Shown: piece after piece, positions 6,099-13,757 of the stretch
Layout of the letters: every line of letters begins with the position of its first letter
Numbering within the stretch: the first letter of the stretch is position 1
NCBI GenBank assembly: GCA_031291305.1
Contig: JARLJH010000052.1
Location: forward strand, 119,515-183,514
DNA: 64,000 nt
Direction: 5' to 3'
DNA from: Rhodoferax sp.
GTDB taxonomy: Bacteria; Pseudomonadota; Gammaproteobacteria; Burkholderiales; Burkholderiaceae_C
Position numbers and translations under genes: made by a program
Notes under the pieces: generated by a model
What the model was told of the DNA's origin: nothing
Databases searched by the model: none
What the model saw: the letters and a program-made list of their open reading frames with translations, nothing else

Positions 6099-6288
6099 CA
6101 ACAAAATATGTTTCAAGCCCCCGTCTATAAACAATAAGTAGATATCAATGCTATAGCATTCAGCCAATACACACCGCGCAGCTTGCCAACCATGTTGCCT
6201 GATCGCCGATCAGGATCGTGTGATTGGTTTTATAGATGCCGTTGCACAAGGTATTCAAGCCAAGCGCAACCCCATTACCATCATGGTC

Positions 6289-7047
6289 ATGGCACTCAAA
6301 CCCCGCATCCTTTTGGTCGAAGACGAATCCGGTATTGCTGACACCTTGCAATACGTATTGGCCACCGATGGCTTCACCCCGGTGTGGTGCAGCACGGCTG
6401 AAGAAGCCATTCGCCAATTTCAGGCCGAGCCGCCCGCGCTGGCGGTGCTGGACGTGGGCCTGCCCGACCTGAACGGTTTTGAGTTGTTTCGCCGCCTGCA
6501 AGCCCTGCCCGGTGGCAGCCAGGTGCCCATGGTGTTTTTGACCGCCCGCAGTGACGAGATCGACCGCGTGGTGGGGCTGGAGCTGGGGGCGGACGACTAC
6601 ATTGCCAAACCGTTTTCGCCGCGTGAACTGGTGGCAAGGGTGCGCACGATTCTGCGTCGCAGCGCACGCGTGGGGGTCGTCGCAGCAGCCCCGACGCCTA
6701 TGGCACAGGTTCCTGTGACACTGTCTGCTGTCTGCACTCGGGCCATCTGGCTACTCGACGAAGAGCGCCATCAGATCCGTTTTTATGGCCGTTTGCTGGA
6801 ACTCTCACGCTATGAATATGGCGTGCTGCGCCTGCTGGTACAAAAGCCCGGGCGGGTGTTCACACGCGACGAGTTGCTGCTCACCGTTTGGGGTGACGAC
6901 AACGACAGCTTTGACCGCACAGTGGACGCGCACATCAAAACCCTGCGCGCCAAGCTCAAGCAAGTGGCGCCTGCGCTGGAGCCGATCCGCACGCTGCGCG
7001 GCACGGGTTATGCCTTGAGCGAAACGCTTCCTGAGACACTGTCTTGA
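6289..7047 (+). CDS. creB: Response regulator CreB
   Basis: A 252-residue OmpR/PhoB-type response regulator. The receiver domain (residues about 4-120) has the acidic pair in LLVEDESGIADT, the phospho-acceptor Asp55 in VLDVGLPDLNGFE, the Thr of FLTARSDEIDR and the Lys of DYIAKPFSPRE. The phrases GIADTL, LDVGLPDLNGFEL and ADDYIAKPFSPRE match E. coli CreB closely. The C-terminal winged helix (about 160-245) contains LSRYEYGVLRLL and DRTVDAHIKTLRAKL. The start is uncertain: ATG at 6283 is an alternative and an upstream ATG at 6220 is in frame; none has a strong Shine-Dalgarno. It is followed 44 bp later by its partner kinase and then by genes with a CreB-type box. Confidence 0.88.
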   Translation: MALKPRILLVEDESGIADTLQYVLATDGFTPVWCSTAEEAIRQFQAEPPALAVLDVGLPDLNGFELFRRLQALPGGSQVPMVFLTARSDEIDRVVGLELGADDYIAKPFSPRELVARVRTILRRSARVGVVAAAPTPMAQVPVTLSAVCTRAIWLLDEERHQIRFYGRLLELSRYEYGVLRLLVQKPGRVFTRDELLLTVWGDDNDSFDRTVDAHIKTLRAKLKQVAPALEPIRTLRGTGYALSETLPETLS

Positions 7048-7091: not shown

Positions 7092-8570
7092 ATGAGCAAG
7101 CGAAGCCGAATCTTCCTTGGCTTGCTGCTGATCTACGCGGTAGGCATCGCGTTTGTGTTGTACCGCGTGGTGTCGGACCTGGACCCGCGCTATCGCGAGT
7201 CAGCAGAAGAGTCACTGGTGGAAACTTCGCAACTGCTGGCCACATTGGTGGAGCAGGATGTGCGTGACGGTGTCATCGACACAGCCCACATGGAATTGCT
7301 GTTCAGGTCAGCCTATGCGCGAGAGTTCGATGTGCAGATTTTCAGCGTCAAGAAAACTCACGTGGAGCTGCGCGCCTATGTGACGGACCGCCACGGCACC
7401 GTGGTGTTTGACTCCACCGGCCAGTCAGTAGGCAAGGATTTTTCACAGTGGCGCGACGTTATGCTGGCGCTCAAAGGCGAGTACGGTGCCCGCACCTCGC
7501 TGGACATCCCGGGCGATGCCAACTCCGCCGTCATGTACGTCGCCGCACCGGTGCGCTGGATCAACACCGCCAACGGCACTGGTACGACGGGGGGTGGGGG
7601 CGAGATCATTGGCACACTGACGGTGGGCAAACCGGTGCAGAGCTTTGGCCAGTTTGTGGTGGCCGCGCGTAGCCGCACGCTGTACGCGGGGTTTCTCTCG
7701 GTGCTGGCGGTGCTGGTGCTGGCGGTCACTGTGTCGGTATGGCTGGTGCGCCCGTTTGGCTTGATTTCGGACTACGCGCACTACGTCAAGGCGCAGCAGG
7801 GTTTTCACCCGCTGCGCCTGCTGCGCCGGGCCTGGGATCTGGTACGCGCCGCCTATGACGAAATGCGTGACGCGCTGGCCGGACGCAACTACGTGGCCGA
7901 CTATGTGCAAACCCTGACGCACGAGGTCAAAAGCCCGCTGTCGGCCATTCGCGGTGCCGCTGAGTTGCTCGAAGAGCCGATGGAAGAAGCCCAGCGCCAG
8001 CAGTTTTTGGGCAACATCCAGCGCGAAACCCAGCGCATCCAGGAGATGGTGGACCGCATGATGGAGCTCACCGCGCTGGAAACCCGCCGCGTGCTCGACA
8101 ACGTGCAGCGTGTGGCTCTGCTGCCCTTGCTGGAAGAGCTGGCCTGCGCCTCGCAAGGCGTGGCCGCGCAGCGCCACATTCGCCTGACGGTGCAGGCGCA
8201 GGCTGATGCCACGGTAGAGGCCGACCCGTTTTTGCTGCGCCGGGGGTTAAGCAACCTGCTGGACAACGCGCTGGATTTTTCGCCTGAAGGTGGGCTGATT
8301 GAACTGGGCCTGCGCCTGGACAAACACTGGGCCTGCATCACCGTGTGCGACCAAGGCCCCGGCATTCCGGCCTATGCGCAAGACAAGGTGTTTGAGAAGT
8401 TTTACTCCCTGGCACGCCCGCACTCCAAGAAGAAAAGCACCGGCCTGGGCCTGAGCTTTGTGAAAGAGATTGCCGCCCTGCACCGCGGGCGGGTCGAGCT
8501 GGGCAACCGTCCCGCGGCGCAAGGGAGCGGCGCGCTGGCCACACTGTGGCTGCGTCTGGCGCCGGCCTGA
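7092..8570 (+). CDS. creC: Sensor histidine kinase CreC
   Basis: A 492-residue inner-membrane sensor kinase. TM1 is at about residues 7-27, a periplasmic sensor domain follows to about 195, TM2 at about 198-220, then a HAMP-like linker. His277 in TLTHEVKSPLSAIRG is the phosphorylation site. The ATPase domain shows the N box NLLDNALDFSPEGG, the G1 box CDQGPGIP and GLGLSFVKEIAALHRG. The N-terminus with DLDPRYRESAEESLVETSQLLATL is typical of CreC. In E. coli CreBC responds to fermentation products and growth state; the signal here is not known. No creD-like gene follows; an exosortase cluster takes that place. Confidence 0.9.
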   Translation: MSKRSRIFLGLLLIYAVGIAFVLYRVVSDLDPRYRESAEESLVETSQLLATLVEQDVRDGVIDTAHMELLFRSAYAREFDVQIFSVKKTHVELRAYVTDRHGTVVFDSTGQSVGKDFSQWRDVMLALKGEYGARTSLDIPGDANSAVMYVAAPVRWINTANGTGTTGGGGEIIGTLTVGKPVQSFGQFVVAARSRTLYAGFLSVLAVLVLAVTVSVWLVRPFGLISDYAHYVKAQQGFHPLRLLRRAWDLVRAAYDEMRDALAGRNYVADYVQTLTHEVKSPLSAIRGAAELLEEPMEEAQRQQFLGNIQRETQRIQEMVDRMMELTALETRRVLDNVQRVALLPLLEELACASQGVAAQRHIRLTVQAQADATVEADPFLLRRGLSNLLDNALDFSPEGGLIELGLRLDKHWACITVCDQGPGIPAYAQDKVFEKFYSLARPHSKKKSTGLGLSFVKEIAALHRGRVELGNRPAAQGSGALATLWLRLAPA

Positions 8571-8580
8571 CGAACATCAA

Positions 8581-8638
8581 AATACTATAAGTAAGGTAGC
8601 TATAGGCCAAGTATATACAAGGGATGCAGGCCATTTTA
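8581..8638. repeat. Dispersed intergenic repeat (TAGCTAT/GCC type), copy 1
   Basis: This AT-rich stretch after creC contains GTAGCTATAGGCCAAG and GGGATGCAGGCCATTTT, the same order of blocks as the other copies in the window. It lies between the creC stop and the CreB-type boxes. Confidence 0.6.
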
Positions 8639-8670
8639 TTATATATCTTCCTCCTACCAGCGTCAGCCAC

Positions 8671-8697
8671 TTCACCCTGACTTCACACAGTTTTCAC
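8671..8697 (+). promoter_or_regulatory. Triple CreB-type cre-tag
   Basis: Three TTCAC boxes at 8671-8675, 8682-8686 and 8693-8697 are separated by exactly 6 bp each (11-bp period). The E. coli CreB recognition site is established as TTCAC-N6-TTCAC. The array lies about 92-118 bp upstream of the vWA/PEP-CTERM gene and just downstream of creBC, so CreB probably activates the exosortase cluster. Binding has not been shown for this organism. Confidence 0.75.
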
Positions 8698-8788
8698 ACA
8701 AGCGCCCAGAGCCTTCCCATTGGCTTCTCCGTGGCGCGGGATGCTCTCTCCACCGTGCAATGTCGCAGGAAGTCTGGAGAACATCACC

Positions 8789-10927
8789 ATGGCCATCGCA
8801 GCCCCCGCAAGCTCAGCGGCGCACAGCGCCTCACGCACCCCGTCGTTCACCGCCCCGCAGGCCGATGCAGCCCCCGAGTACAGCTCGCGCTGGTTGTGGC
8901 TATCCACCACGCTGCTGGCAGCCAGTTGCTTTGTAGCGCTGGTGGCCAGCCCGGCACAAGCGCAAGACCTGGATGCCGCCCCGCGCCAAAAGACCGAGAG
9001 CCCTTACTTCTTCGTCAAAAGCAATGACCCGACGCTGGACCAGTTGCCGCTGAAATCCACGCAAGTCAATGTGCAGGTCAGCGGCGTGATTGCCGACGTG
9101 ACCGTGGTCCAGACCTACAAAAACGAAGGCCAGCGCGCCATTGAAGCCAAGTACGTGTTCCCCGGCTCCACCCGCGCGGCCGTGCATGGCATGAACGTGC
9201 GTCTGGCGGATCGGCTGATCACCGCCAAAATCCGCGAGAAACAACAGGCCAAGATCGAGTACGAGGCCGCCAAACAAGAGGGCAAAACCGCCGCCCTGCT
9301 GGAGCAGCACCTGCCCAACGTGTTCCAGATGAACGTGGCCAACATCATGCCCGGCGACGACGTGAAGGTGGAGTTGCGCTACACCGAGCTGCTGCTGCCG
9401 ACCGACGGAAAATACCAGTTTGTCTTCCCCACCGTGGTCGGCCCGCGCTACAACAGCCCGCAGAGTTCGCAGGCCAATGCCACCTGGGTGGCCCAGCCCA
9501 CGCTGCCGCAGGGCCAGCAAACGCCCACCAGCGCGGCCCAACCTGCGTTTGACATCCACGTCACGCTCAACACCCCTGTTGGCGTGAAAGAGGTGACTTC
9601 GCCCTCACACACCATCCACAACGCCACCGAACAGGGCGGGGCCACTGTGGTCGGCCTGAACCCCACCGACGAGCCCACCAACAACCGCGACTTCATCCTG
9701 AACTACCGCCTGGCCGGTGACAAGATCGAAAGCGGCGTGATGCTCTACAAGGGCCAGGACGAAAACTTCTTCCTCGCCATGGTGGAGCCGCCCAAGGCCC
9801 CGCCAGCGGCCAGCATCAGCCCGCGTGACTACATCTTTGTGGTGGACATTTCAGGCTCCATGCACGGCTTTCCGCTGGACACCGCCAAGGGCGTGCTGCG
9901 TGAACTGATTGGTGGCCTGCGCCCCAGCGACACCTTCAACGTGCTGCTGTTCTCAGGCAGCAACCGCTTCCTGAGTCCGCAGTCGGTGCCCGCCACCAAG
10001 GCCAACATCGAGCAAGCCATCCGCACCATCGACCAGGAAGGCGGCGGTGGCAGCACCGAGCTGATTCCGGCGCTGAAACGTGTCTATGCCCAACCCAAGA
10101 ACGCCGACGTGTCGCGCACCGTGGTGGTGGTGACCGACGGCTATGTCACCGTGGAGCGCGAAGCCTTTGAGCTGGTGCGCCAGCACCTCAGCAGCGCCAA
10201 TGTGTTCTCGTTTGGCATTGGCTCCAGCGTCAACCGCCACCTGATGGAAGGCCTGGCCCGCGCCGGCATGGGCGAGCCTTTCATCATCACCAACCCGGAC
10301 CAGGCCGCGGGTGAAGCCAAGCGCTTTCGCAAAATGATCGACTCCCCCGTGCTGACCAACGTGAAAGTGCGTTTTGAAGGTCTGGACGTGTACGACGTGG
10401 AACCCGCCCAAGTGCCCGACCTGCTGGCCGAGCGCCCCTTGATCGTGTTTGGCAAATGGCGCGGGGAGGCCAAGGGCCAACTGCTGGTGGACGGCAACGC
10501 CGCCAACGGCCCGCTGCACTTGAGCGTGCCCATCAGCGCCAACAACGCATCTGATACCGCTGCCCTGCGCCACCTGTGGGCGCGTCACCGCATTGCCGCA
10601 CTGAGCGACCAGGAAACGCTGGAAGGTGGCGATGCCGCCAAAGAAGCCATCACCGAGCTGGGCCTGAAATACAGCCTGCTGACCCAGTACACCAGCTTCC
10701 TGGCCGTGGACCAGGTGGTGCGCAACACGGCCCCGGCAGACAGTACCAGCGTCAACCAGCCCTTGCCCCTGCCGCAAGGCGTGGAGAACTCGGCCCTGGG
10801 CGCTGAAGTGCCCAGCACCCCTGAACCCGCCACCTGGGGCGCGATGCTGGTGACGATCTCGGTGTTGGCCATGCTGGCGCTGCGCCGCCGCCGTGCCCAA
10901 GCCCGTGCTCACCACTACACCCTGTGA
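8789..10927 (+). CDS. VIT and vWA domain protein with PEP-CTERM sorting tail
   Basis: A 712-residue exported protein. A long N-region precedes a hydrophobic signal segment ending SPAQAQ (about residue 60). A VIT domain follows at about 75-205 (QVNVQVSGVIADVTVVQTYKN onwards), and a von Willebrand A domain at about 345-520 with an intact MIDAS start DISGS (Asp353). The C-terminus has the PEP motif at residues 678-680 (TPEPATW), a hydrophobic helix, and the basic cluster RRRR before the end: an exosortase recognition tail. It resembles inter-alpha-trypsin-inhibitor heavy-chain-like proteins. The ATG was chosen for the GGAGA nine bases ahead. It lies 9 bp from the exosortase gene, so it is presumably that enzyme's dedicated substrate. 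Confidence 0.9.
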   Translation: MAIAAPASSAAHSASRTPSFTAPQADAAPEYSSRWLWLSTTLLAASCFVALVASPAQAQDLDAAPRQKTESPYFFVKSNDPTLDQLPLKSTQVNVQVSGVIADVTVVQTYKNEGQRAIEAKYVFPGSTRAAVHGMNVRLADRLITAKIREKQQAKIEYEAAKQEGKTAALLEQHLPNVFQMNVANIMPGDDVKVELRYTELLLPTDGKYQFVFPTVVGPRYNSPQSSQANATWVAQPTLPQGQQTPTSAAQPAFDIHVTLNTPVGVKEVTSPSHTIHNATEQGGATVVGLNPTDEPTNNRDFILNYRLAGDKIESGVMLYKGQDENFFLAMVEPPKAPPAASISPRDYIFVVDISGSMHGFPLDTAKGVLRELIGGLRPSDTFNVLLFSGSNRFLSPQSVPATKANIEQAIRTIDQEGGGGSTELIPALKRVYAQPKNADVSRTVVVVTDGYVTVEREAFELVRQHLSSANVFSFGIGSSVNRHLMEGLARAGMGEPFIITNPDQAAGEAKRFRKMIDSPVLTNVKVRFEGLDVYDVEPAQVPDLLAERPLIVFGKWRGEAKGQLLVDGNAANGPLHLSVPISANNASDTAALRHLWARHRIAALSDQETLEGGDAAKEAITELGLKYSLLTQYTSFLAVDQVVRNTAPADSTSVNQPLPLPQGVENSALGAEVPSTPEPATWGAMLVTISVLAMLALRRRRAQARAHHYTL

Positions 10928-10936
10928 GCCGACACC

Positions 10937-11806
10937 ATGGCACAAGCACAACTTCTGCACATGCCACGTCTGCTGGACTCGCCCACCTTCGTGCGCTGGG
11001 GTGTTGCCATCGACACCGCCCCCGAGTGGCGCTGGCTGGCCCTGCTGGCCGCAGCCCTGTGGCCCACCTGGTGGTGGATGGCCCAGCGTATGGCAGATGG
11101 CTCCGACGACCCGCTGGGTTTGCTGGCCCTTGCTGCGTTAGCGGGCCTGCTGTGGCAACACCGCCAGCACCTGCGGGCCGCACCACGGCTGGGGCTGCAA
11201 GCCGCAGCACTGGTCGGTGTGGTGCTGGCCACAGGGCTGCACCACCAGTTGCCCGATCTGGCCGTGGCGCTGATTCGCCTGTTGAGCCTGGCTGCCGGCC
11301 TGCTGGCGTTTTTACCCCGGCGGGTGGCCATGGCACCGGTGCTGGGCCTGTCGGTGTTGTCATTGCCGCTGCTGGCCTCGCTGCAGTTTTACGCGGGCTT
11401 TCCGCTGCGTGTGGTCACGGCAGAGATGAGCCGTTGGCTGCTGTCGCTGGCCCACACAGTAGAGCGCAGCGGCAGCAGCCTGGTGGTGGACGGGCAACTC
11501 ATCATCGTAGACGCACCTTGCTCGGGCGTACAAATGGCCTGGCTGGGCTACTTCAGCGCTTGCGTGGTGGCGCTGACTGTTGGCCGCAGCAACCGCAGCT
11601 TTTTGCTGCGCCTGCCACTGGTGGGCGCGCTGGTGCTGCTGGGCAATGTGCTGCGCAACACGGTGCTGGTCGCGCTACAAGCCGCAGGCACACACCTGCC
11701 CGGTTGGGGCCATGACGCCGTGGGCCTGGTGGTGTTGGCTGCCGTGTGCAGTGGCATTGCCTGGGTGATGAGCCGTCAAACCATGTTGGAGCGCAACGCA
11801 TCATGA
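10937..11806 (+). CDS. Exosortase (transpeptidase-like PEP-CTERM sorting enzyme)
   Basis: A 289-residue polytopic membrane protein with about eight hydrophobic segments. The exosortase catalytic triad is readable: Cys195 in DAPCSGVQM, Arg240 in NVLRNTVLV, His259 in GWGHDAVG. Such enzymes recognise the PEP-CTERM tail, cleave it and hand the protein on across or out of the membrane, often in strains producing exopolysaccharide. Here the gene directly follows its likely sole local target and overlaps the next gene by four bases (ATGA). No polysaccharide genes are nearby, which fits a small dedicated exosortase subtype. I cannot assign the subtype letter with confidence. Confidence 0.88.
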   Translation: MAQAQLLHMPRLLDSPTFVRWGVAIDTAPEWRWLALLAAALWPTWWWMAQRMADGSDDPLGLLALAALAGLLWQHRQHLRAAPRLGLQAAALVGVVLATGLHHQLPDLAVALIRLLSLAAGLLAFLPRRVAMAPVLGLSVLSLPLLASLQFYAGFPLRVVTAEMSRWLLSLAHTVERSGSSLVVDGQLIIVDAPCSGVQMAWLGYFSACVVALTVGRSNRSFLLRLPLVGALVLLGNVLRNTVLVALQAAGTHLPGWGHDAVGLVVLAAVCSGIAWVMSRQTMLERNAS

Positions 11807-12360
11807 ACTTCCTGGCAAACCGTTTCGTCAACCGCGTGTTGCACAAAACCCTGTGGGCCGCGCTGCTGCCGCTGTGCGCACTGTGGGGCATCGGCCAGGC
11901 CGTGGCTGATCACGTGACACCGCAGCCAGCGGCCCTGTCCATGCCCAGTGTGGAGTGGCCCACTGAATGGCGGGGCAACCCGTTGCGCCCGCTGGCGCTC
12001 AGCGAGGTGGAACAGCGCTTCGCCAGCCACTTCCCCGGCGCGCTGGCACGCCTGACCGATGGCCGGCAGGTGCTGGTGCTGCGCCAGGTGAACCAGCCCA
12101 CGCGCATGCTGCACCCGGCCACCGACTGCTACCGGGGCCTGGGCTACCGCATCCACAACGAGCAGCTGGAAGTGCAGGCCGACCACGCCCGCTGGCGCTG
12201 CTTTGTGGCCGAGCGCGGTGGCCGTGCCGTGCGCGTGTGCGAACGCATTGAAGACGCGCAGGGCCAGGGTTTTACCGATGCGTCAGCCTGGTACTGGGCC
12301 TCGGTGGCAGGGCAGTCCAGCGGGCCGTGGCGGGCGATGACGGTTGCTACGCCGCTCTAA
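11803..12360 (+). CDS. Exosortase-associated membrane-anchored protein
   Basis: A 185-residue protein whose ATG overlaps the exosortase stop (ATGA), indicating tight co-translation. A single hydrophobic segment at about residues 17-36 would anchor it, with the rest (SVEWPTEWRG..., HPATDCYRGLGYRI, RWRCFVAERGG) in the periplasm. The TDCYRGLGY and W-R-C patterns are reminiscent of the EpsI-like proteins that accompany exosortases, but I cannot name a family with certainty. Three cysteines in the soluble part could form disulfides or bind a ligand. It probably assists processing or presentation of the vWA target. Confidence 0.75.
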   Translation: MNFLANRFVNRVLHKTLWAALLPLCALWGIGQAVADHVTPQPAALSMPSVEWPTEWRGNPLRPLALSEVEQRFASHFPGALARLTDGRQVLVLRQVNQPTRMLHPATDCYRGLGYRIHNEQLEVQADHARWRCFVAERGGRAVRVCERIEDAQGQGFTDASAWYWASVAGQSSGPWRAMTVATPL

Positions 12361-12419: not shown

Positions 12420-13757
12420 ATGAACACCACGTCAGACCCCAGCAGCCATCACTGGCTGCGCGCCTTGCACCGTTTTTGCTTCTGGCTGGGTCTGATCAGC
12501 GTCGGCCTGGCGCTGGTTATGCTGGTCATGTTGGGCGTGCTGCGCTCTGCGTTGCGCCCGCCGCCCGGTGCCTGGTCGACCCGGGTACACGTGGGGCCGG
12601 TCGCCATCGAGGTGGGTGTGCCCTCGCTGATCTGGCTGGGCACTACGCCGTGGCTGGCGCAGCAGTTGGACGGCCACACCCTGCCCACCCGCATCGGCCC
12701 GGTGCGGATGGCGTGGGACGCGCACAGCCACACCATGCGCCTGACCTGCCAGCCTTGCAGCCTGCGCAGTTCCAGTTGGGGCAGTGAGCCATTGCGGCTG
12801 ACCAGCGTGTCCGCCACCGTGCAGCGCCTGGGGGCCATGCAATTGCACGGCACACTGAGCGCAGGCGCCGTCCATGCGACCTGGCACGGTCAACTCCAAC
12901 CCAATGGTTTGCAGCTGGACATGACCCTGGCGCCCACCCCGGTGCGCGACGGCTACGCATTGTTTGCCAGCGCCATCCCCGAGCTGGCTGTGGCGCAAAT
13001 CGACGGCACCTTTGCCCTGCACGCCAGCCTGAGCCTGCCATCCAAAACCCTGACGCTCACGCCACAGTTGCAAGGCATGAGCGTGCAAGGCTTGGGCACC
13101 GCGCAGTGGGCCAACGCCCGCAGCCAGTGTGGCAATGACCTCTCCCCCGCCGCGCTGGCCGCACCGCTGAACGCCCAAAGCCTGCTGGCCCGCGCCGTGA
13201 TCGCCGCCGAGGACCAGCGCTTTTTTGAACACCCCGGCTACGACCTGGCAGAGATGAGCCAGGCCCTGCACAGCAACCAGCGCACCGCCCTTGCGCAAGC
13301 AGAAACCTCGACCACCGATGAAACTTTGACCGCGTCCGGCACCGCACTGCGCGGAGCCAGCACCTTGTCTCAACAAGTGGCCAAGCTGCTGGTCACCGGC
13401 GGCGATCGCTCCCCCGTACGCAAGCTGCGCGAACTGCTCTATGCCGTGGAGATGGAACAAACCCTGGGCAAAGCGCGCATCCTGCGCCTGTACCTGGACA
13501 ACGCGCCGTGGGGTAGCAACCTGTGCGGCGCGCAGGCCGCAGCACAGCACTACTTCAACAAACGCGCCGACCACCTCACCGCCCCCGAGGCCGTCTGGCT
13601 AGCCGCCATGTTGCACAACCCCGCACTGGAAGCGAAGCGCTGGGCCAGCAGCGGGCACATCAATGTGGCGCGGGCGCGGTGGGTGGCGGGGAATTTGCGG
13701 GGGATGGGGAAGAGGCAGAGGGTGCGGCTGATGAAGGGACTGGGGAGTTTGCAATGA
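12420..13757 (+). CDS. GT51 peptidoglycan glycosyltransferase (transglycosylase) domain protein
   Basis: A 445-residue protein with one N-terminal membrane helix (about residues 17-41), a long domain without recognised motifs (about 42-230), and a GT51 transglycosylase domain at about 240-430. Motif EDQRFFEHPG contains the catalytic Glu264; GASTLSQQVAKLL is the second signature; RKLRELLYAVEMEQ and YLDNAPWG follow. There is no penicillin-binding transpeptidase domain, so it is monofunctional, but twice as long as MtgA. A roughly 40-residue insertion with low-complexity character sits between the two motifs. It is the last gene of the CreB-linked cluster, separated from it by one repeat copy, and could remodel the wall for export or anchoring of the vWA protein. 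Confidence 0.85.
   Translation: MNTTSDPSSHHWLRALHRFCFWLGLISVGLALVMLVMLGVLRSALRPPPGAWSTRVHVGPVAIEVGVPSLIWLGTTPWLAQQLDGHTLPTRIGPVRMAWDAHSHTMRLTCQPCSLRSSSWGSEPLRLTSVSATVQRLGAMQLHGTLSAGAVHATWHGQLQPNGLQLDMTLAPTPVRDGYALFASAIPELAVAQIDGTFALHASLSLPSKTLTLTPQLQGMSVQGLGTAQWANARSQCGNDLSPAALAAPLNAQSLLARAVIAAEDQRFFEHPGYDLAEMSQALHSNQRTALAQAETSTTDETLTASGTALRGASTLSQQVAKLLVTGGDRSPVRKLRELLYAVEMEQTLGKARILRLYLDNAPWGSNLCGAQAAAQHYFNKRADHLTAPEAVWLAAMLHNPALEAKRWASSGHINVARARWVAGNLRGMGKRQRVRLMKGLGSLQ

Follow-up and report, generated by a model that had tools for sequence, protein, structure and literature searches.

The CreBC two-component system was recognised long ago, but there is no consensus on its purpose. The tag TTCACN6TTCAC is the CreB/BlrA site and is described as critical for both regulators in the available parts of two papers (PMC4689548, PMC3660660), in which creD and Aeromonas beta-lactamases appear as tag targets. 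Activation of creD by CreBC has been described for E. coli and P. aeruginosa (PMC4689548, available part), and an accessible portion of PMC2654508 states that CreD sits in the inner membrane, with its function still unknown, and that loss of PBP4 activates CreBC in P. aeruginosa.

The proteobacterial dedicated sortase system (TIGR03785/03787/03788) likewise combines, by its model names, a sorting enzyme of its own with a VIT/vWA-type target and a two-component pair. It uses a sortase and its own regulator family, unlike the exosortase and CreBC of the locus described here, and the proteins of this locus score below its models (response regulator TIGR03787, 125.8 versus 335.7; histidine kinase TIGR03785, 115.2 versus 612.2; target TIGR03788, 436.8 versus 551.65). 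The PrsK/PrsR pair, in the part available of a 2006 study (PMC1569441), is another two-component pair proposed to control PEP-CTERM genes via a shared upstream site; it is NtrC-like and works with sigma-54, unlike CreBC. Sigma-54/PrsR-type control was considered for the present loci and rejected, a crude sigma-54 pattern occurring in 0 of 61 upstream regions of 300 bp. The literature searched yielded no regulator of XrtQ (subscription papers lay mostly outside its scope) and no exosortase-CreB or exosortase-CreD link (NCBIfam notes on XrtQ lay outside it).

The window, that is, the whole 64-kb stretch of DNA analysed, stems from a genome of 4.98 Mb. With the Cre/Blr regulon of E. coli, Aeromonas, Pseudomonas and Stenotrophomonas it shares the tag and its orientation, CreB/CreC orthologues as judged by curated models, and a near-identical recognition helix. 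It differs in that the target is a predicted exosortase operon, that its CreBC is a distinct subfamily, and that creD was not found in the genome. As in exosortase Q systems (NF012182), its XrtQ lies over the curated cut-off and has a PEP-CTERM neighbour. The evidence points to 8671-8745 as a CreB-activated promoter of the VIT/vWA(PEP-CTERM)-xrtQ-epsI-transglycosylase gene set, a reading to which we assign a probability of about 0.87, and we infer that CreB would control this gene set directly.

The tagged locus and its genes

The features of the locus are as follows.
6283..7047, + strand: creB, OmpR-family response regulator (NF008296 CreB, 301 bits versus cut-off 273; Response_reg and Trans_reg_C)
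7092..8570, + strand: creC, sensor histidine kinase of an XrtQ-associated subfamily (NF008312 CreC, 566 bits versus cut-off 356; tree)
8671-8675, 8682-8686 and 8693-8697, + strand: three TTCAC boxes, strict cre/blr tag (from the sequence; kept in relatives)
8714..8729, + strand: degenerate second pair, TTCCC-N6-TTCTC (TTC pairs at offset 11 in relatives)
8740..8745, + strand: predicted -10 element, reading GATGCT, 15 nt downstream of where the last box starts
8789..10927, + strand: VIT and vWA protein whose C-terminus bears a PEP-CTERM-type sorting signal (VPSTPEP, membrane segment, basic tail; PF08487, PF13768)
10937..11806, + strand: xrtQ, exosortase Q (NF012182, 392 bits versus cut-off 270)
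11803..12360, + strand: EpsI-like protein (C-terminal part of XrtT NF033770; conserved neighbour)
12420..13757, + strand: peptidoglycan glycosyltransferase (transglycosylase) domain protein (PF00912, E 5.5e-39; conserved neighbour)

The sequence-only reading had placed three TTCAC boxes with exact 6-bp spacers between creBC and the vWA/PEP-CTERM gene. This was borne out at 8671-8697, where the spacers are CCTGAC and ACAGTT, 6 bp each, and the curated models agree with the neighbours that it had named: CreB, CreC and the exosortase, here XrtQ, all score over their cut-offs. Two TTCAC boxes with a 6-bp spacer in the promoter are what the CreB regulon has, and they are present here. The open frame of creB has an alternative start at 6220. 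An AT-rich stretch lies at 8590-8655, between creC and the boxes.

The exact pair TTCAC-N6-TTCAC occurs in the 64-kb window as just two overlapping pairs, both formed by these boxes. With up to one mismatch, 7 pair matches were found, versus a shuffle mean of 3.07 (n = 100), and 7 was reached in 5 of the 100 shuffles. Across the whole genome there were 10 exact pairs versus 8 for the reversed control pattern, so that a single two-box match is not rare genome-wide; it is because of its place and its conservation in relatives that the tag stands above chance. Seven of the remaining eight genomic places lie within open frames of at least 139 codons, not all of them sure genes, and the eighth (L098) lies between frames, before one of 148 codons. 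A wider CreB regulon within this genome was set aside, with seven of the eight other exact-pair places being inside open frames.

The VIT/vWA protein reached 437 bits against TIGR03788, below the cut-off of 552. Its PEP-CTERM signal scored 19.7 bits by hmmscan, just below the cut-off of 20.7, and 24.5 bits, above it, in the genome search; among the vWA proteins of the 61 loci, 57 have PEP or PAP within the last 50 residues. Exosortase Q is expected next to a PEP-CTERM target, which is found here, and with Cys, Arg and His kept: C171, R216 and H235 (numbering of the aligned piece) are invariant in 11 aligned sequences, and XrtQ is over the curated cut-off. The EpsI-like protein matched NF033770 with E 1.9e-8 and 33 bits, far under the cut-off of 250, and no Pfam family matched it. 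Because of their spacing and conserved order, the four genes from vWA to transglycosylase are predicted to form one operon.

The genome encodes a second exosortase on contig 68 (18894-19646, PF09721, 256 bits). Five other PEP-CTERM matches over the cut-off were found in the genome, and contig 68 carries a PEP-CTERM match at 8502-8576. The idea of XrtQ as the sole exosortase of the genome is ruled out by the PF09721 match. The proposal that CreB controls protein sorting should be narrowed accordingly: given the second exosortase, CreB would control the XrtQ branch only.

Conservation of the tag in XrtQ loci

XrtQ scored over the cut-off in 61 of 399 genomes of the same family, the window's own counted. 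The first set consisted of 62 loci, from the other 60 XrtQ genomes plus two partial matches (L062, L063). The latter two, without a vWA match, were dropped and the window was added, giving 61 regions, of which L051 and L085 were dropped for having less than 200 bp upstream of the vWA match, which left 59 usable regions. A partial match of G148 was kept out of the locus set, as were weak XrtQ matches (E 1e-8 to 4e-4), which were taken as other exosortases or fragments. The named set comprised 80 loci, reduced to 76 by dropping L187, L228 and L249 (short upstream) and L214 (no vWA match). It overlaps the first set, some genomes being common to both, as in the case of L252 and L042.

A search for the tag upstream of the vWA gene in syntenic loci had been set beforehand as the test that could refute the proposed link, and it found the exact pair on the gene strand in 54 of 59 regions (window included) and in 72 of 76 of the named set, species overlapping between the two. 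Shuffled upstream regions had the pair in a mean of 0.01 of 59, with a maximum of 1. The arrangement is specific in spacing and orientation: with spacings of 0 to 30 searched, the reverse strand had no pair in any of the 59 regions, and on the gene strand every spacing other than 6 occurred in at most 2 regions, except for 17, which reflects the third box and occurred in 9 of 59. The reversed control CACTT-N6-CACTT was found in 1 of 59 regions, and other 500-bp tiles of the same loci had the pair on the plus strand, as oriented, in 1 of 1234. The boxes are conserved, the flanking sequence far less so.

Regions without an exact pair fall into several kinds. L056, L058 and L088 carry a one-mismatch tag. 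L043, counted as a miss, has a run of N directly before the vWA match, and this miss is uninformative because of that assembly gap. In L042/L252, which represent one genome, XrtQ-type creBC lies beside the operon, and no tag was found even at one mismatch. When up to one mismatch was allowed, 75 of the 76 regions of the named set had the tag.

The number of pairs per region was one in 45, two (three boxes) in 8 and three (four boxes) in 1. Three boxes were present in 17 of the 76 named regions, including all 12 of L174-L185. The nearest named XrtQ relatives of the window are Rhodoferax, Curvibacter, Comamonadaceae and other MAGs, and the third box is a trait of a Rhodoferax/Curvibacter-like clade plus a few others. 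The tag that the sequence-only reading had called triple is therefore so in the window and in some clades (9/59 and 17/76) but not as a general unit: the conserved unit is two boxes, and the third box is clade-specific.

In the rest of the order, five genomes outside the family had XrtQ-like matches at E <1e-30, one of them over the cut-off, and four of the five loci have the exact tag. It lies directly 5' of the target frame in L170, L172 and L173. In L171 a frame of 295 codons stands between the tag and the vWA frame, and in L169 the vWA frame is preceded by a tag with one mismatch. The targets of L172 and L173 are frames of about 800 codons (7467-9935 and 7504-9903, reverse complement) with a PEP-CTERM-like tail by eye, and neither had a BLAST match to the window's VIT/vWA protein. 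L170 has the same 20-bp tagged stretch twice (7006 and 7597, reverse complement). The two copies, separated by about 590 bp, precede two consecutive frames and have the look of a duplicated regulatory site. In the wider class, XrtQ matched in 13 of 369 genomes, two over the cut-off (window's own included), and the three best other matches had no exact pair in short loci that perhaps do not reach the target promoter.

A predicted larger promoter that includes the tag

The tagged site appears to belong to a larger promoter, to which a -10-like element and a further, degenerate pair of TTC boxes also belong. Of the 54 loci with the strict pair, 52 have a second TTC pair, its boxes 11 nt apart, further downstream (mononucleotide shuffles: mean 0.58, maximum 4), as do 71 of 72 in the named set. 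In every locus with a second pair (52/52 and 71/71, any pair counted), the distance from the start of the pair's second box to the pattern xAxxxT is exactly 15 nt; at any other offset from 8 to 23 it was seen in at most 12 loci. This plan was found by inspection, and the named set in which it recurred has genomes in common with the first set. The pair bearing the -10-like element begins 30-34 nt downstream of the last strict pair in 34 loci, 41-42 nt in 7, 52-53 nt in 8 and 62-74 nt in 3; these distances are mostly whole helical turns, about three, four or five. Transcription in the window is predicted to start at about 8750-8755. Many loci also have a short inverted repeat just past the predicted start site (e.g., CCGTGC-N6-GCACGG); as a raw count, 31 of 52 loci show arms that pair perfectly over 5 bp or more, and the arm sequences differ. 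In the window the repeat is at 8751-8768 and imperfect. It may form a hairpin at the 5' end of the RNA.

The plan resembles that of the creD promoters, which are one turn tighter. Those with an exact tag (n = 29, 28 relatives plus E. coli) have boxes at 0, 11, 20 and 31 and a -10 element at 46, position 47 being A in 25 of 29 and position 51 being T in 24 of 29. Their second pair reads about TTCAT-N6-CTCAC, and the TTC-N8-TTC pattern was found at offset 11 in 0 of 29. E. coli creD fits loosely, with boxes at 0, 11, 21 and 32 and TATCCT at 47. The E. coli cbr genes are known CreB targets; exact tags stand before cbrA and cbrB, and no obvious second pair was seen at either of them.

This layout bears on whether CreB activates. 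CreB might instead repress or only modulate the genes, with basal transcription coming from the upstream AT-rich, sigma-70-like promoter or from creBC read-through; a sigma-70-like match at 8614-8642, upstream of the boxes, and the lack of a terminator-like site in 8500-8850 would suit such a scheme. It has to contend, however, with the -10-like element that every locus with a second pair has at a fixed 15 nt from where the last box starts, with the many loci where creBC is not directly upstream, and with creD, whose promoters are of like layout and which CreBC regulates positively in both E. coli and P. aeruginosa (PMC4689548, available part). We regard repression or mere modulation as unlikely and retain activation by CreB as the preferred reading.

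A CreBC subfamily associated with exosortase Q

The recognition helix of the window's CreB is DRTVDAHIKTLRAKL versus DRTVDTHIKTLRAKL in E. coli, a difference of one residue, so that the genome has a CreB orthologue whose helix matches that of E. coli CreB closely. CreC was over the cut-off in 60 of the 61 genomes with XrtQ versus 100 of the 338 others (Fisher p 2e-26, relatedness ignored); the exception, the genome G104, is 76% complete. It was also over the cut-off in 5 of 5 genomes outside the family with XrtQ-like loci. A tree was built from 97 CreC proteins, taking solely rows with most of CreC aligned. It contains a 59-row group (SH-aLRT 100), in which 56 rows come from XrtQ-bearing loci or genomes and three do not; the 56 include L119, where the end of the contig cuts the vWA gene, L063, which has a partial xrtQ, and L273, which is of another family. 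Outside the group are 38 rows: E. coli, 36 genomes in which XrtQ was not detected, and G188, in which XrtQ is present yet the fetched CreC belongs to the classical group. The window's CreBC thus falls, by the tree, into a subfamily that goes with XrtQ.

Where creC lies outside the fetched XrtQ locus, 20 stretches were fetched around it, some about 10 kb off and some far away or on another contig. XrtQ-subfamily CreC was found in 19 of these 20, and an exact tag beside creBC in 0 of 20 (3.9 to 7.6 kb), so that there is no sign of creBC self-regulation. A further 40 CreC loci were fetched from the 100 CreC-positive genomes without XrtQ over the cut-off, and four had a CreC of the XrtQ subfamily (L119, L128, L131, L137). 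In L128, the tag is followed by creD and an alpha-2-macroglobulin gene. L131 (6462-8088) has XrtQ-type creBC, the tag and directly the transglycosylase gene, with no vWA or xrtQ in the stretch, and the glycosyltransferase may therefore be a CreB target in its own right. L137 has XrtQ-type creBC without tag or XrtQ.

Among the remaining CreC loci and E. coli, CreD is present in 36, and L103 is without it. In these classical loci, E. coli included, the tag before creD is exact in 29 of 36 and has at most one mismatch in 34 of 36. CreD (PF06123) was found in 24 of the 61 XrtQ-positive genomes. The window's genome gave no PF06123 match, and the classical creBCD arrangement, with creD next to or controlled with creBC, was not found in it. 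A CreD match within an XrtQ locus is always divergent from the vWA gene (12/12 in the first set; 42/42, among 76 loci, in the named set), and the strand facing creD often has a degenerate TTCAC-like box by eye.

These data weigh on the possibility that a different OmpR-family regulator uses the TTCAC repeats and that creBC is merely a neighbour. Direct repeats one helical turn apart are usual throughout this family, and the tag is retained at loci whose creBC is outside the fetched XrtQ locus. It is difficult, however, to reconcile another regulator with the same tag before creD in 29 of 36 classical-creBC loci, with the joint occurrence of XrtQ and the CreBC subfamily, and with a recognition helix that is nearly that of E. 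coli CreB. Such a regulator seems quite improbable, and CreB remains the favoured candidate.

Other tagged genes in relatives

The extended motif TTCACNCNGNCTTCACAC had 45 matches in 40 of the 61 XrtQ-positive genomes, and its reversed control had 0. By coordinate comparison, 38 of the 45 are located at the vWA gene, 5' of xrtQ. The remaining seven are before a MurA paralogue (four), a VanW-like gene and a weak alpha-2-macroglobulin-like gene (a match below the cut-off, the gene being cut by the end of the stretch), with one lacking a clear gene. That the boxes are a chance run, for which the 10 genome matches versus 8 for the control and the seven of eight other places in open frames could be cited, is hardly credible against 54/59 and 72/76 regions with one spacing and one orientation, the shuffle mean of 0.01 and the extended motif without any control match.

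The MurA paralogue (E 1e-100) is present in 20 of the 61 XrtQ-positive genomes, and none of its matches falls in the window's genome. Its tag is exact in 6 of 20, has at most one mismatch in 12 of 20 and is missing in 8 of 20; among the 12, that of L157 is near the gene start and perhaps due to chance. As a candidate general CreB target, the MurA paralogue thus gives a partial result. The common theme of the tagged genes is peptidoglycan and envelope.

Proposed mechanism and biological meaning

In the mechanism that we propose, CreC would sense envelope (peptidoglycan) stress and phosphorylate CreB. CreB dimers would bind the strict pair first and then the degenerate pair over the -35 position, in tandem and on the same DNA face, from where they could recruit RNA polymerase. 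Activation would raise the surface VIT/vWA protein, the neighbouring sorting enzyme and the wall glycosyltransferase together. The third box, where present, might add one monomer site, giving stronger or earlier switching.

Since the same motif precedes creD, MurA paralogue, VanW-like and alpha-2-macroglobulin-like genes in relatives, exosortase sorting would join the envelope repair response. The odds are about even for a wider view, in which this CreBC subfamily evolved with exosortase Q as a cell-wall-damage switch for a transglycosylase and for a surface VIT/vWA protein together with the enzyme that sorts it, exosortase sorting is part of envelope repair, and CreB promoters in this lineage are arrays of four boxes, the known cre tag being just the upstream half.

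The findings bear on the regulators and motifs of PEP-CTERM/EpsH systems, further ones of which were, in the part available of the 2006 study, still to be discovered (PMC1569441). A tag kept in nearly all the related loci examined suggests a new job for CreBC, a regulator with an unclear role: it probably switches on a small gene set for cell-wall building and for the anchoring of a single surface protein. The conserved target set of a sorted surface protein, an exosortase and a wall-building enzyme would give the purpose of CreBC a concrete form, and the exosortase system would gain a predicted signal, peptidoglycan stress.
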